A DNA stretch of 47,630 nucleotides, taken from assembly GCA_020849655.1 (NCBI GenBank), contig JADLFU010000055.1, forward strand, positions 1-47,630. Direction: 5' to 3'. Made by a program: the position numbers and the translations under genes. This DNA is from Polyangiaceae bacterium. GTDB taxonomy: Bacteria > Myxococcota_A > Polyangia > Polyangiales > Polyangiaceae. Below, piece by piece: positions 1 through 42,085 of this stretch (the first letter of the stretch is position 1; each line of letters opens with the position of its first letter). The notes under the pieces were generated by a model. It did no database searches, had not been told where the DNA came from, and saw nothing but the letters and a program-made list of their open reading frames with translations.

Positions 1-699
1 ACCACCGAGGTCACCATGGCGCACTACGCGGCCTTCCTCGCCGAGAAGAAGGACGATCTCTCGGGCCAGCGCGAGATCTGCAAGGACAACACCTCGTTCG
101 AGCCGCCCGGCGACAGCGACACGGCAATCATCCGCTGTCCGAACGACTATTTTCTGCCGGACGCCAGGCCCGACTGGCCCATGGGGTGCGTCGATTTCTG
201 CGACGCCGACGCGTACTGCAAGTGGGCGGGCAAGCGGCTGTGTGGGCGCATCGGAGGTGGCACCTTGACCACGGAGGAGTCGATCGATCCGAAGGCGAGC
301 GAGTGGGTCAACGCGTGCACGCAGGGCGGCAAGACCAAGCTCCCGTACGGCAACACGTTCGAGGACGGACGGTGCATCGACGCTACGCGCATGCCCAAGG
401 GCGCAGGACTCGAGGGCCTCGCTGTGCTCGCCGATCCGCAGAAGAATGCGCCCGAGTGTCGTGGAACCGAGCCGCCGTTCGACAAGGTCTACTCGATGAG
501 TGTCGGCCTCGTGGAGTGGGACGACTCGGTCGTGGGAGACACGCCGGACAACGCTACAGCGGGCCTGCGGGGTGGCAACTATGGTGGAAGTTCCAAACAG
601 CTCTTTCCCCCTGCCTGCGCGGAGCCTGACGGCACGCAAGCGCGCACGCTCTTCAGATTTGTCAGCACCTCGCTCGGCTTCCGCTGCTGCGGCGACTGA
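1..699 (+). CDS. SUMF1/formylglycine-generating-enzyme-fold protein, 5' end outside window
   Basis: The frame is open from base 1, and the first residues (TTEVTMAHYAAFL) already match the start of a SUMF1 fold, so the true start and any signal peptide lie off the left edge. The protein ends in GFRCCGD with a stop at 697-699. Typical family signatures are the segment CDADAYCKWAGKRLCG, a WVNACTQGG segment and a GLRGGNYGG turn. Myxobacteria encode many secreted lipoproteins of this kind. I see no evidence for the sulfatase-activating FGE reaction, since the closing Cys pair is a general feature of this subgroup, so the role is unknown. A full-length relative lies at 44067-45623. A damaged copy of this gene follows directly at 727. 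Confidence 0.85.
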   Translation, partial: TTEVTMAHYAAFLAEKKDDLSGQREICKDNTSFEPPGDSDTAIIRCPNDYFLPDARPDWPMGCVDFCDADAYCKWAGKRLCGRIGGGTLTTEESIDPKASEWVNACTQGGKTKLPYGNTFEDGRCIDATRMPKGAGLEGLAVLADPQKNAPECRGTEPPFDKVYSMSVGLVEWDDSVVGDTPDNATAGLRGGNYGGSSKQLFPPACAEPDGTQARTLFRFVSTSLGFRCCGD

Positions 700-726
700 C
701 CGATCCCCCTCACCCCCAACTCACTC

Positions 727-1126
727 ATGGCATCCCATTCCCCACGTCTCCAGCGCACCGTCTCCCCGCTCCTCGTCCTCGCTCTGGCCGCCATCAGCGC
801 GTGCGCGGCTGAGCAACGCGACGCGGCGCCCGGGGGCACGGGCACCGCGGGGACTGCTGGCACGGCGGCCGGGGCAAGCGGTGCTCCCATCGGAGAGGAG
901 ATTCGGCCACGCAGACCGATCATCCGCTGTCCGAATGACTACTTTCTGCCGGAGTGCCGCGGAACCGAGCCGCCGTTCGACAGGATCTACTCGATGAGTG
1001 TCGGGATGCGTGGGTGGGACGACTCGGTCTTGGGCGATGCCGTCTCGGGCCTCCGGTCGGGCGCTCGCCCCATCTCTCATCGCTGGTGTCGCTACCAACG
1101 TCGGTCTCCGCTGCTGCGGCGACTGA
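727..1126 (+). pseudogene. Decayed tandem copy of the upstream SUMF1 lipoprotein gene
   Basis: The ATG at 727 opens a lipoprotein signal peptide (lipobox AISAC) and a Gly/Thr/Ala linker. The segment 919-953 is then nearly identical to 126-162 of the upstream gene (IIRCPNDYFLP). It jumps straight to a match of 455 onward (CRGTEPPFD, YSMSVG), which removes about 98 codons of the fold in frame. Near the end the frame is lost: the homologous ending LRCCGD plus TGA is present at 1109-1126 but in another frame, while the frame opened at 727 runs on to 1158 with unrelated residues. It is therefore a doubly damaged duplicate. A short expressed lipoprotein to 1158 is possible but would lack the fold. 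Confidence 0.8.
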
Positions 1127-1210
1127 CCGATCACGCACCTCCAGCGGAGGGTCGTTGAGTGCCGCTGTGACTGGGGACGCCGTCGCGGAAGGGCGCCGCG
1201 CGGGGCGCGC

Positions 1211-2290
1211 TCACGGCGCGTCGCCGAGCTGCACCACGTAGCGGGCGACGGCCGCGAGATCGGTCGCTCCGAGCAGGCCGGGGCTCGTACCCGGCGGCGC
1301 GACGCTCCCCGCGGTGGAGGTGTGATCGAGCACCACGTAGTAGACGCCCTTCTTCAGCGGGATGGTGCGCTTGACCTCCTTGCCTTGCGGCACGACCTCG
1401 GCCGCCAGCGGCTGCCCGGGGAGCGGGCCCGCGCCGGGGCGAAACACGTGGTCGCGCAGCCAGGGGTCGGCCGTCTCTCTGCGCATCAGGAACATGTCGA
1501 GGTTCGGCGCGCCGTCGACGTTCATCGTCAAGAACAGCGCCCGCCCGTCGCTGTCCACTGTGAAGGGCCCGACGAACTCGCGCTGCTCCGAGTGGATCTC
1601 CGACCAGTCGGAGGCCAGCAGCGCCTTCGAGGAGCCGCGCACGTTGTAGGGGTGAAACGGCCGCTGGCCCTTCTCGAGGATCCCGAGCGCGAAGTCGGCC
1701 TCGCCGTTCGGCTCGCGGAGCACGGTGAAGCCCTTCTGGAGCTCCTGCGCGACGATCTGGGAGCCGATGCGCGACACGAGCTCGGGGCTCGTCTGCCCGA
1801 GCAGCATGCCGGCGACCCCGCTCGCGGTCTGGTGCTCGATCATCACGGCCTCGAACTTCGAGGACTGCACGTTCCGCGGCCGGAAATACGCGTACATCGT
1901 GCCGTCGTCGATCAGCAGATCCGGGTTGTAGGTGATGGCCGCCGCCGCCCGGAAGCCGATGCGCCCCGTCGGCTGGGTCCACGCGTAGCCGGCGCCCGAG
2001 AACTGCACGAACGCGTCGTCGTTCTCCAGCTCCCGGTAGTCGCACTGGTCGATGAAGAACCGCCCGACCGCCGGCGCGTCGTCCCTCACCTTCAGCGGCG
2101 CGCCGCGCTGGCGCATCTCCCTGCAGAACTGCCCCGAGCCGAACTGGAGCAGCTCCCGCCGGAGCGTCCGGTTCTTCGGATCGTTGACGACCCCGGGCAT
2201 GAGCGTGACGAGCTTCGTGCCGGTGGACGTGCACGCCGACGCGGCGCACGAGAGGGTGAGGGCGAGCCCGAGGGCGCGGGGGAGCGACAC
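1211..2290 (-). CDS. Predicted lipoprotein of unknown function
   Basis: I do not recognise a family. Starting at the GTG whose first base is 2290 gives VSLPRALGLALTL followed by lipobox ASAC, a clean lipoprotein signal peptide, so I prefer it. ATG starts at 2362 and 2404 are in frame but would put about 24 to 38 extra residues before the hydrophobic stretch. The mature protein is about 340 residues, without membrane segments, and has a regular mixed composition suggestive of a soluble globular domain on the inner or outer membrane surface. It is the last minus-strand gene before the SUMF1 pair and lies about 145 bases beyond the end of the peptidase gene on the same strand, so the two could share a transcript. 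Confidence 0.7.
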   Translation of the reverse strand: MSLPRALGLALTLSCAASACTSTGTKLVTLMPGVVNDPKNRTLRRELLQFGSGQFCREMRQRGAPLKVRDDAPAVGRFFIDQCDYRELENDDAFVQFSGAGYAWTQPTGRIGFRAAAAITYNPDLLIDDGTMYAYFRPRNVQSSKFEAVMIEHQTASGVAGMLLGQTSPELVSRIGSQIVAQELQKGFTVLREPNGEADFALGILEKGQRPFHPYNVRGSSKALLASDWSEIHSEQREFVGPFTVDSDGRALFLTMNVDGAPNLDMFLMRRETADPWLRDHVFRPGAGPLPGQPLAAEVVPQGKEVKRTIPLKKGVYYVVLDHTSTAGSVAPPGTSPGLLGATDLAAVARYVVQLGDAP

Positions 2291-2435
2291 GGCGGCGACG
2301 TTAGACGGGCGCTCACCCGGACTGAACGACTTTCGTGCGCGAGGCGCTCGCGAGAGGGCCATGTCGATTCCGACATGAGTCGCGGCCAGGCGCACACCCA
2401 CCAAAACGAGGTCACCGTGGAACTGCGCTGTAAAA

Positions 2436-3383
2436 TCAGCGAGTTCGGTCAGACACGAGACGTGTCGGTTTGGACTCGACGTCGTCGTCTCCGTGCCGAT
2501 CGGCCCGCTTCGCCTGCTCGATCTTCGAGTAGCGGGCGGGCTCGCCGGGGCGCGCTAGGTCGACCCAGGTCGTCGCCTTGTCGCGCACGTCGACGTGGAC
2601 GAAGGTGTTGTTCGGGTAGTAGCCGCAGCCGAGCTTCTTGATGGACTTGCAGAAGTCGCGGAGCTCGGAGTTGCGGACGCCCGCGATGTGGAAATCGATC
2701 GCGGCGCCCTCGTGGTGCTTCGAGCGCGCGCCGCGCTGGCCCTTCGCGGGCTGACGGAAGCCGCTGACGACCTCGATCGTCTTGCCCCCGAAGTGATCGC
2801 TGATCTCCGCGATCGTCGCGATGAGGCGCGGGTGGATCGTGTGGCGCTTGCCCGCGTGGGTCGACAGCACCCGCGCGAAGCCCTCCTGCGCGCGCCGCGA
2901 CACGCGCGACCTGCGCTCGAACACCGGGCCCTGCCACTCCTCGCCGTCGAGCACGATCCTCACATGGCCCGGGCGCTGCGGGCCGTCGTCGTCGCTCGAG
3001 CGGCGCTCCTTGTCGCGGTCCTTCTTCTTCGCGCGGTCGGCGCGCGGCTCCTCGCGCTCCTCGTCGCGGTCTCGCTCGCCCCTCGCCTCCGGGTCGGCGC
3101 CCTTCTTCTTGTCGCGCGTGCGCGCGCGATCGTCTCCCTCGCTCGGGATGACGAGCTTCATCCCCTCGTGGAGCTTCTGGCCCGGCGAGAGGTCGTTCGC
3201 CTCGCGCAGATCGTCGACCGAGACGTGGAACCGCTTCGCGATCTTCGCCAGCGTCTGCCCCGCGCCGACGACGTGCACGCGCCCCGGCTCGCCCGGCTTC
3301 GACGCGGCGGACGAGGGCGACGCCGCGGAGATCGCCAGCAGCGACGACATGATCGGCCCGCCCCACCTCGCGAAGAGCTTCAT
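2436..3383 (-). CDS. LysM and M15/DUF882 (YcbK-like) murein peptidase
   Basis: The 315-residue protein has an N-terminal signal peptide (about 1-27), a LysM peptidoglycan-binding domain (about 36-80) and a very charged linker rich in Asp, Arg, Lys and Glu (about 82-135). A C-terminal M15-type zinc peptidase domain follows. The family signature SxHxxGxAxD is visible with S221, H223, G226, A228 and D230, and the second metal motif HVD with H263 and D265. In this family these residues bind zinc and cut peptide cross-links of peptidoglycan, so a periplasmic cell-wall hydrolase is likely. It is divergent from pilM with about 90 bases between the starts, so the two may share a bidirectional promoter region. 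The exact bond cut cannot be told from sequence. Confidence 0.85.
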   Translation of the reverse strand: MKLFARWGGPIMSSLLAISAASPSSAASKPGEPGRVHVVGAGQTLAKIAKRFHVSVDDLREANDLSPGQKLHEGMKLVIPSEGDDRARTRDKKKGADPEARGERDRDEEREEPRADRAKKKDRDKERRSSDDDGPQRPGHVRIVLDGEEWQGPVFERRSRVSRRAQEGFARVLSTHAGKRHTIHPRLIATIAEISDHFGGKTIEVVSGFRQPAKGQRGARSKHHEGAAIDFHIAGVRNSELRDFCKSIKKLGCGYYPNNTFVHVDVRDKATTWVDLARPGEPARYSKIEQAKRADRHGDDDVESKPTRLVSDRTR

Positions 3384-39307: not shown

Positions 39308-40495
39308 ATGGACGCACACCTGCGCGAGCTGCTGGATCTGGTGATCCGGTGGGTCCACGTGATCGCGGGGATCATGTGGATCGGGAACTCTCTGTTGTTC
39401 AACTGGCTCGACCGCAACCTCGTCAAGCTCGCCGACCGCGACGCGCGCCACGAGGGCGAGATCTGGCTCCTGCACTCGGGCGGCTTCTACCAGGTCGAGA
39501 AGAAGCAGCTGCCGCCGGGGCAGATGCCCGCGATGCTGCACTGGTTCAAGTGGCAGAACTTCACCACGTGGGCGAGCGGCATCTCGCTGCTCGTCGTCGT
39601 CTACTACATGGGCGGGGGCGCGCTGCTCGCCGATCCGAGCGTGACGACCCTCCACCCGCACGCGCAGATCGGCGTCGGCGTCGGCACCATCGTCGGCGCG
39701 TGGGTCGTGTACGACGGGCTCTTCCGGTCGCCGCTCGCGAAGATCGAGTGGCTCGCGTCGCTCCTCGGGCTCGGCCTCCTGTTCGGGCTCGCGTACGGCC
39801 TCACGCACGTGATGAGCGGGCGCGCGGCGTTCCTCCACGTCGGCGTCGTCATCGGCACGCTGATGACCGGCAACGTGTGGATGGTGATCGTGCCGTCGCA
39901 GCGCGAGCTGGTGGCGGCGACGACCGAGGGGCGCGAGCAGGACAAGCGCATCGGGATGCGCGCGAAGGCGCGCAGCATCCACAACAACTACTTCACGTTC
40001 CCGCTGCTGTTCATCATGGTGTCGAACCACTTCCCGTCGACGTTCGGCGCGAAGCTGCCGTGGGCGGTGCTGGCGCTCATCCTGTTCGTCGGCGCGGGCG
40101 TGCGGCACCTGATGAACATCCGGTTCCACACCAAGGGGTGGTTCCCGCCGCTCGTCGGGCTGTGCGTGGCCGGCCTGGCGGGCCTGTTCGCGCTCACGCG
40201 GCGAGAGGGGCCGAAGGCGCCCTCCGGGCCGCCGGTGTCGTTCGCCGAGGCGCAGGCGATCGTGCAGCAGAGGTGTGTCCCCTGCCACTCGCAGCACCCC
40301 ACCGACGACGTGTGGAAGGCCCCGCCGAGCGGCGTCGTGCTCGACGCGCCGGCGCAGATGAAGCTCCTCGCGTCGCGCATCCGCGAGCGCGCGGTCGTCA
40401 CGCGGTCGATGCCGCTAGGTAACAAGACCAACATGACCGACGACGAGCGCGACCGGCTCGCGCGCTGGGTCGCGGCGGGCGCGCCGATCGAGTGA
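39308..40495 (+). CDS. puuD: Urate hydroxylase PuuD (membrane, with cytochrome c domain)
   Basis: PuuD oxidises urate to 5-hydroxyisourate, passing electrons to its own cytochrome c domain. The 395-residue protein begins with the Urate_ox_N (DUF989) membrane region: a conserved RWVHVIAGIMWIGNS helix and about eight hydrophobic segments in the first 300 residues. A short linker leads to a C-terminal haem c domain with the CVPCH site and MTDDERDRLARWV near the end. No other purine-catabolism gene (allantoinase, HIU hydrolase, OHCU decarboxylase) is in the window. It may be cotranscribed with the pseudouridine synthase. Confidence 0.92.
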   Translation: MDAHLRELLDLVIRWVHVIAGIMWIGNSLLFNWLDRNLVKLADRDARHEGEIWLLHSGGFYQVEKKQLPPGQMPAMLHWFKWQNFTTWASGISLLVVVYYMGGGALLADPSVTTLHPHAQIGVGVGTIVGAWVVYDGLFRSPLAKIEWLASLLGLGLLFGLAYGLTHVMSGRAAFLHVGVVIGTLMTGNVWMVIVPSQRELVAATTEGREQDKRIGMRAKARSIHNNYFTFPLLFIMVSNHFPSTFGAKLPWAVLALILFVGAGVRHLMNIRFHTKGWFPPLVGLCVAGLAGLFALTRREGPKAPSGPPVSFAEAQAIVQQRCVPCHSQHPTDDVWKAPPSGVVLDAPAQMKLLASRIRERAVVTRSMPLGNKTNMTDDERDRLARWVAAGAPIE

Positions 40496-40505
40496 GCCGT
40501 GCGGC

Positions 40506-41369
40506 TCAGTGTTCGCGCGCCTTCGTCGCCGTCGCCGTGAGCAGCTCGGGCCCGCCCGGCTCGCCGTGGCCCGGGATGACGACCCGCGCGCCCAGCGCCA
40601 GCGCCGCCTCCGCCGAGGTCGCCCAGTGGTCCAGATCGGCGTCGGCGGTGTTCCCGAGGCCGGGGTGCGAGCGGACCATGCAGCCGCCGAACAGCACGCC
40701 GCGCTCGGGGAAGTACACGACGAGGTTGTCTGCGCTGTGGCCCGCGCCGACGAACAGCGCGCGCGCCTCCTCCGCGCCGGCCTTCACGGTGAGGCCCTCC
40801 GCCTCGGCGAACTCGTGCGCGGCCCTGGTGAAGCGCGTCGCGCGGACGCGCGCGGCGAGGGCGGGCGCGTCGGCCTGCACGTACGTCGCCATCCCAAGGA
40901 GGCCGGCGACCCCGCGCGCTGCCTGGAGGCGTGAGGTGTGGTCGCTCGCGTACGTCTCGACCCCCTCGGCCGCGTAGCCCTCGTTCCCCCCGGTGCCGTC
41001 CGCGTGAAAGTGCGTGTTGATCGCGACCATGCGGGCAGGTGAGAGCCGCGCCCGCGCCCAGCGCACGAGGGCGCGCGTGGCCTCGGTGTCGTACGGCGAC
41101 GAGCAGAACACCACCGTCCCGTCCTGCATGCGCACGACGAGGATGTTCGCCGCGCTCCCGCGGGGGCTCTCCTGCACCGCGAGGTACGCGCCGCCTCCGA
41201 GGTCGCGCACCGTGACGCCGACGTCCGTGAGCGCCGCCTCCGCCTCGATCAGGTGAGGCGCGGGGGAGGCGGCAGGAGCGGGGCGGCGGGCGCACGCCGC
41301 GGCGCCGAGCGCGAGGCCGATCGCCGCGGCGAGGAGCTGTCGAGCGCGCCTCGTCATCGCCGCCCTCAC
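40506..41369 (-). CDS. Lipoprotein metallo-beta-lactamase-fold protein with subclass B1 ligand set
   Basis: A GTG at 41369 overlaps the hisA stop (GTGA); an ATG at 41357 is the alternative. The signal peptide ends in LGAAAC (Cys 26), so it is a lipoprotein. Numbered from the GTG, zinc ligands fit subclass B1: H120, H122 and D124 in NTHFHADGTGG, H211 in GHSADNLVVYFPERGVLF, C230 in GGCMVR, and H268 in IPGHGE. The GLGN-x5-DxDxxHW stretch after C230 also matches B1 enzymes such as IMP. A region of about 28 extra residues sits between D124 and H211. Hydrolysis of beta-lactams is plausible but not shown. Its place at the end of a his operon is odd. Confidence 0.85.
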   Translation of the reverse strand: MRAAMTRRARQLLAAAIGLALGAAACARRPAPAASPAPHLIEAEAALTDVGVTVRDLGGGAYLAVQESPRGSAANILVVRMQDGTVVFCSSPYDTEATRALVRWARARLSPARMVAINTHFHADGTGGNEGYAAEGVETYASDHTSRLQAARGVAGLLGMATYVQADAPALAARVRATRFTRAAHEFAEAEGLTVKAGAEEARALFVGAGHSADNLVVYFPERGVLFGGCMVRSHPGLGNTADADLDHWATSAEAALALGARVVIPGHGEPGGPELLTATATKAREH

Positions 41370-42085
41370 GCGCCGAGCGCGCGCGCGTCCTCGATCGAGA
41401 ACACGCCGTCGTGCAGCGCCTTGCCGATGACGACCCCCGCGATCGTCGGGGCCGCGGCCAGCGCGCGCACGTGGTCGAGGGCGCCGACGCCGCCGCTCGC
41501 GAGCACGGGGAACGGCGACGCCGCGCCGAGCGCCGAGGTCGCCTCGACGTTGGGCCCGGCTCTCGTGCCGTCGCGCGAGATGTCGGTGTACAGCACGGCG
41601 CCGATCGGGGCGTCGTCGAAGGAGCGGACGACGTCGATCGAGGTGCGGGTCGTCACCGTCTCCCAGCCTCGCGTCGCGACGAGGCCGTCCTTCGCGTCGA
41701 CGGCGAGCACGACGCGCCCGGGCGCGCCCCTCGCGATCGACCGGACGAGATCGGGCGCCTCGACGGCGGCGGTGCCGAGCACGACGCGCGCGGCGCCTGC
41801 CGACAAGTACGCCTCCGCCGCGTCGAGCGAGCGCACGCCGCCCCCGACCTGCACGCCGGGCCCGAACGCCGCGACCAGCGCCCGCACGGCGTCGAGCTGC
41901 GCGAGCTCGCCGCCGCGCGCGCCCTCGAGATCGACGACGTGCAGCCGCGGCGTGCGGCCGCGCCACCGCGTCGCGATGGCGACCGGGTCCGCGTCGTAGA
42001 CCGTGACCTCGTCGTAGCGGCCCTGGAGCAGCCGCACGGCCGCCCCTCGGAGCAGATCGATCGCGGGGTAGATCTCGAGCGCCAC
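41366..42085 (-). CDS. hisA: HisA, ProFAR isomerase (histidine biosynthesis)
   Basis: HisA converts ProFAR to PRFAR, a (beta/alpha)8 barrel step in histidine synthesis. The catalytic Asp at the N-terminus (PAIDLLRG) and the second one in YTDISRDGTRAGPN are present, as are the phosphate loops VQVGGGVRS and ASGGVGAL. Its length of 239 residues is normal. It follows hisH by seven bases and precedes the metallo-beta-lactamase gene, overlapping its GTG. Confidence 0.95.
   Translation of the reverse strand: MALEIYPAIDLLRGAAVRLLQGRYDEVTVYDADPVAIATRWRGRTPRLHVVDLEGARGGELAQLDAVRALVAAFGPGVQVGGGVRSLDAAEAYLSAGAARVVLGTAAVEAPDLVRSIARGAPGRVVLAVDAKDGLVATRGWETVTTRTSIDVVRSFDDAPIGAVLYTDISRDGTRAGPNVEATSALGAASPFPVLASGGVGALDHVRALAAAPTIAGVVIGKALHDGVFSIEDARALGA

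Follow-up and report, generated by a model that had tools for sequence, protein, structure and literature searches.

A predicted lipoprotein of the SPM branch of subclass B1 metallo-beta-lactamases encoded behind hisA in a Polyangiaceae genome

Introduction

The contig JADLFU010000055.1 of an uncultured Polyangiaceae bacterium, analyzed here as one stretch of 47,630 nucleotides (the window), carries directly behind hisA an open reading frame for which an initial annotation had proposed a lipoprotein metallo-beta-lactamase of subclass B1 that is coupled to the his operon. This raises the question to which branch of the metallo-beta-lactamases the encoded protein belongs and whether its position behind a histidine gene has a functional meaning. 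We conclude with high confidence that the product of this gene, here termed bla, is a subclass B1 metallo-beta-lactamase of the SPM branch, a predicted hydrolase that is periplasmic and probably anchored by a lipid. The bla gene was more likely gained as a single gene behind hisA than lost from the related genome.

Gene, Start Codon and Signal Peptide

In agreement with the initial annotation, the minus strand contains a single uninterrupted frame from 40506 to 41369, comprising 287 codons counted from a GTG at 41369. The similarity of its product to B1 enzymes is far above chance, with 9e-45 for SPM-1 as nearest solved structure by sequence, followed by SPS-1 (4e-33), and with E = 4e-49 for the B1 model of NCBIfam. 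From the end of hisA to the start of bla the minus strand reads GGCGC-GTGA-GGGCGGCG-ATG. The GTG at 41369 overlaps the hisA stop codon and no ribosome-binding sequence was found just before it, whereas the ATG at 41357 is preceded by GAGG six bases upstream and yields a compact signal peptide, MTRRARQLLAAAIGLALGAAAC. For this reason the ATG is the more likely start, and the GTG a possible one. The overlap that had been described as GTGA coupling is thus present in the sequence but is probably not the true start of bla. With the ATG, the gene spans 40506 to 41357 on the minus strand and encodes a predicted lipoprotein of 283 amino acids.

The translation places the signal peptide at 41292 to 41357 (minus strand) with the lipobox cysteine at Cys22 of the ATG-started protein, and the structural model has a helix at residues 3–19. 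The lipobox, LGAAAC, is a plausible but loose form with Ala at -3; those of the two nearest homologues are stricter (LAAC and LGAC). The lipobox had been likened to that of NDM-1, and this likeness does not extend to the enzyme, as NDM-1 is only 30% identical and falls outside the SPM clade, so that an NDM-like reading was rejected. A foreign base composition of bla was rejected as well: GC content (76%) and GC3 (0.94) are host-like and match hisA.

Zinc Ligands, Active-Site Residues and Central Insert

The alignment of 49 B1 sequences shows every one of the six zinc ligands in the window protein, i.e., H116, H118 and H196 as well as D120, C221 and H263. They are located in the motifs HFHADG (H116, H118, D120; H116-F-H118-A-D120 followed by G121 at 40998 to 41012, minus strand), GHSADN (H196), GGCMVR (C221) and IPGHGE (H263), and GLGN contains N233; the positions were verified by alignment with SPM-1, SPS-1, VIM-4, IMP-1 and NDM-1. 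The ligands and the GLGN region are hence as described initially. From this alignment, N233 and R224 are likely substrate contacts. A B1-like sequence of Hymenobacter mucosus in the comparison set (L045:4001-4549) aligns with Ser at position 221 and Asn at position 263, where the other ligand sets have C221 and H263; this may reflect a changed metal site or a slip in the alignment.

The extra region of about 28 residues that had been noticed between the two metal motifs is real. The spacing between D120 and H196 is 86 residues, compared to 84 in SPM-1 and 87 in SPS-1; it is 78–88 in the whole SPM/SPS clade and 44–64 in all other B1 enzymes compared. The corresponding region lies approximately at 40839 to 40943 (minus strand), with model helices 139–161 and 165–173. 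It is not a novel feature, as this central insert was once believed to occur only in SPM-1 and was later met in PAN-1 and SPS-1 (PMC6663966); the placement of the protein in the SPM branch explains it. The window protein also has the second-sphere pair S84/G121, which within the aligned set is restricted to the SPM clade and one further locus (L023). Among pathogen-associated enzymes this pair was reported to be unique to SPM-1 (PMC3879351).

Family Assignment and Phylogeny

The Pfam search assigned the window protein to Lactamase_B and no further, which would leave room for another family of the metallo-beta-lactamase fold such as glyoxalase II, B3 or B2. All of the 25 top-ranking NCBIfam models are B1 families, headed by GMB (168.7 bits) and the B1 equivalog (167.2 bits), and SPM scores 152.9 bits, with none of the cut-offs being reached. 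The miss of the curated 200-bit cut-off of NF033088 (B1) is not telling, since the core of SPS-1, which hydrolyzes imipenem (PMC5637372), scores only 141.8 bits against 206 for the SPM-1 core; this cut-off does not bound subclass B1. NF012150, describing the SPM family in the sense of alleles, starts at 500 bits, and by its score the window protein is classified as SPM-like rather than as an SPM allele.

The structure prediction that the initial annotation had suggested as a check was done with AlphaFold2 on an alignment of 13 proteins from the tree set described below and resulted in a model with a mean pLDDT of 89.9. SPM-1 was its best match, both in Foldseek (rank 1) and in VIA-align (rank 1, Z 35.1, 1.7 Å over 235 residues), followed in the latter by SPS-1 (Z 33.0) and, among the further matches, the B2 enzyme CphA (Z 30.3). 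The chains 5ls3 and 4bp0 are SPM-1 by their titles, despite an IMP-1 label in the sequence table.

A phylogeny had been suggested likewise, and a maximum-likelihood tree was calculated from 53 sequences including B3-like outgroups, with B2 left out. The window protein and two Myxococcota genes, to which it is 74% and 71% identical, form a clade of three (100/100) within a ten-member SPM-1 clade (100/98), itself part of a 19-member SPM+SPS clade (100/99). Ligands, predicted fold and tree agree and support the assignment to subclass B1, within which the protein is placed as a myxobacterial sister line to SPM-1 with about 40% identity. The initial expectation of an outgroup to B1 is therefore not borne out, as the protein sits inside B1, in the SPM-1 branch, which is also designated group B1-5. 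B3 enzymes generally lack Cys221, and the window protein has both C221 and H116; the B3-like proteins are separated from B1 by a long, well supported branch, by which a B3 reading was rejected. In B2 enzymes position 116 is Asn (PMC5637372), and H116 thus argues against B2. Membership in another family of the fold is by these observations extremely improbable.

The nearest genes and genomes are metagenome-assembled genomes (MAGs) of Myxococcota, consistent with the myxobacterial host that had been assumed. Purifying selection is seen between the window gene and its nearest homologue, L018 (dN 0.284, dS 1.17), and between L018 and L019 (dN 0.095, dS 0.52).

Two other loci carry genes with high identity to SPM-1 over the core, namely 65% in a MAG (L024:2231-3019, JAIEMT010000048.1) and 60% in Eisenbacteria (L025). 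Both may be nearer to SPM-1 than is PAN-1 with its published 57%, although the compared lengths differ. In the SPS branch, several loci (L026, L029 and L032) encode the B1 domain together with an upstream domain in one long open frame; these are possible fusion proteins, and by eye the upstream domain resembles polysaccharide deacetylase.

Genomic Setting

Upstream of bla and on the same strand lie hisA, hisH and hisB. The hisA gene (41366 to 42085, minus strand; PF00977), the stop codon of which is 8 nt before the preferred ATG, is 90% identical to hisA of G026, the sole other genome of the genus that was compared. Downstream, a gene for a membrane protein resembling the N-terminal part of urate oxidase (39308 to 40495, plus strand; PF06181) is convergent to bla. 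G026 has the same gene order and no bla gene. The stretch absent from it corresponds to 40498 to 41364 of the window, has clean ends and is flanked on both sides by DNA of about 83–86% identity, and in G026 the convergent gene and hisA are about ten bases apart.

The strand shared with hisB, hisH and hisA and the short distance to the hisA stop would fit a functional part in the his operon, e.g., in metabolite repair or in the regulation of histidine synthesis. This reading is nevertheless highly improbable, as the his genes of G026 are the same but bla is missing there, and the nearest homologues are found in other contexts: those at L019 and L010 have an HD-domain response regulator region on one side and a gene for a universal stress protein on the other, and that at L018 has phage-type genes on both sides. 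No conserved linkage of bla to his genes was seen among the homologues and in G026. The proposed coupling to the operon is therefore not supported and a role of bla in histidine synthesis is unlikely; with a single-gene addition that is absent from the nearest relative, the link to hisA looks local and incidental to histidine.

Gain or Loss and Possible Mobility

Local sequence alone cannot separate a gain of bla from a loss in G026. Around bla no convincing flanking repeats or integron-like site were found beyond GC-rich chance repeats, and both ends of the stretch absent from G026 share only the triplet TCA, i.e., the two stop codons. In G026 the urate-oxidase-like gene (L137:11788-13209) reads GAG-TTA where the window has GAG-TGA; without this stop codon, its frame continues antisense into hisA. 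This read-through could be the scar of a bla loss. A gain as a single gene behind hisA is favoured over such a loss, because relatives of bla were found by a single-protein search in only 8 of 108 genomes of the family, the window genome included, the neighbourhoods of the homologues differ and the gene tree departs from that of the hosts. The bla genes of L018 (genome G131) and L019 (genome G025), which belong to different families (f4 and f1), are 83% identical with a dS of 0.52, a distance similar to that between hisA genes inside the genus of the window host (dS 0.48), and the window gene, whose host shares the family of L019, is more distant from L019 than L018 is. The closeness of L018 and L019 against their host families is no more than a suggestive sign of transfer, because L018 is a 3-kb contig that may be misbinned.

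L018 (positions 316-3005, JAGQJE010000370.1, MAG HKST-UBA22) contains the homologue with 74% identity in opposite orientation to phage-type neighbours, namely a tail completion or Neck1-type phage protein (phrog_222, Phage_tail_S) and a phrog_16236 protein (463 bits). On this 3-kb contig the SPM-type B1 gene is apparently prophage cargo. The matches listed from plasmid collections are VIM, IMP and NDM, mostly 25–33% identical, with no close relative of the window gene among them; no close relative was found in phage collections or, by pattern search, in IMG/VR. One speculative and rather unlikely scenario is that the SPM branch is old and moves horizontally as single-gene cargo among Myxococcota and further little-known phyla, in part on prophages, and that SPM-1 came to Pseudomonas from a source in or near such environmental bacteria.

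Proposed Function

By analogy to the family, the window protein would hold two zinc ions by H116/H118/H196 and D120/C221/H263, and a zinc-activated water would attack the beta-lactam carbonyl and open the ring outside the inner membrane, as in other B1 enzymes. R224 and N233 would keep the substrate in place, and the active site would be shaped, as in SPM-1, by the helical insert that separates the metal motifs. Judged from the layout, bla is probably transcribed by read-through from the his genes. The frame, the ligands, the predicted fold, the branch and the absence of bla from G026 come directly from the analysis, and we infer lipidation, transcription with hisA, hydrolysis and biological role. 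Hydrolysis of beta-lactams is predicted from the family, and the benefit for the host would probably be to be shielded from beta-lactams of its surroundings.

Points against this reading are R224 in place of K224, the identity of about 40% to SPM-1, the missed B1 cut-off of NCBIfam and the origin from one MAG; the first two limit what can be said on the substrate range. A B1-fold hydrolase whose beta-lactamase activity was lost or never strong, and whose substrate is another ester, a thioester or a lactone, is improbable, though less so than a part in the his operon. Imipenem was hydrolyzed by 18 of 21 predicted B1 genes and three were inactive in Escherichia coli (PMC5637372), and the place of bla next to the his genes might point to a metabolic function. 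However, all ligands and N233 are kept, the clade is shared with SPM-1 and near to SPS-1, both of which are active, and the his neighbourhood is unconserved.

Comparison with Known Enzymes

B1 enzymes are already known in myxobacteria, such as MYX-1 and STA-1 (PMC5637372, PMC10740994). MYX-1, COR and PYX are from Myxococcaceae, and the Pyxidicoccus and Corallococcus sequences differ from the window protein by a short spacing (54), D84/R121 and a separate branch. The GMB family (NCBIfam NF038103), although the best-scoring model, has a family cut-off of 580 bits, far above the score of the window protein. Environmental relatives of SPM-1 are known as well. PAN-1 from Pseudobacteriovorax antillogorgiicola is an active relative that is likewise environmental and chromosomal with the SPM-type insert (PMC6663966), and its identity to SPM-1 is higher than that of the window protein (57 and about 40%, each against SPM-1 and not against one another). 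SPS-1 from Sediminispirochaeta smaragdinae (PDB 6cqs) shares the insert, R224 and N233, whereas it has G116 and D84/N121 instead of H116 and S84/G121 and is 36% identical. SPM-1, a hospital carbapenemase from Pseudomonas aeruginosa (PDB 2fhx, 4bp0), has in common with the window protein the six zinc ligands, the central helical insert, S84/G121 and the fold, and it differs by K224 and Y233 in place of R224 and N233, the identity being about 40% over the core; unlike SPM-1, the window gene lies on a chromosomal contig from a myxobacterium. What is new here is an SPM-type sub-branch with S84/G121 among Myxococcota, which shows signs of having moved between genomes. SPM-1 was seen as exceptional because of its insert and S84/G121, and the presence of both in environmental genomes, several of them Myxococcota, suggests that they mark a branch and are not peculiar to a single clinical enzyme. 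The natural variants R224 and N233 in this set provide material for testing the roles of these residues.
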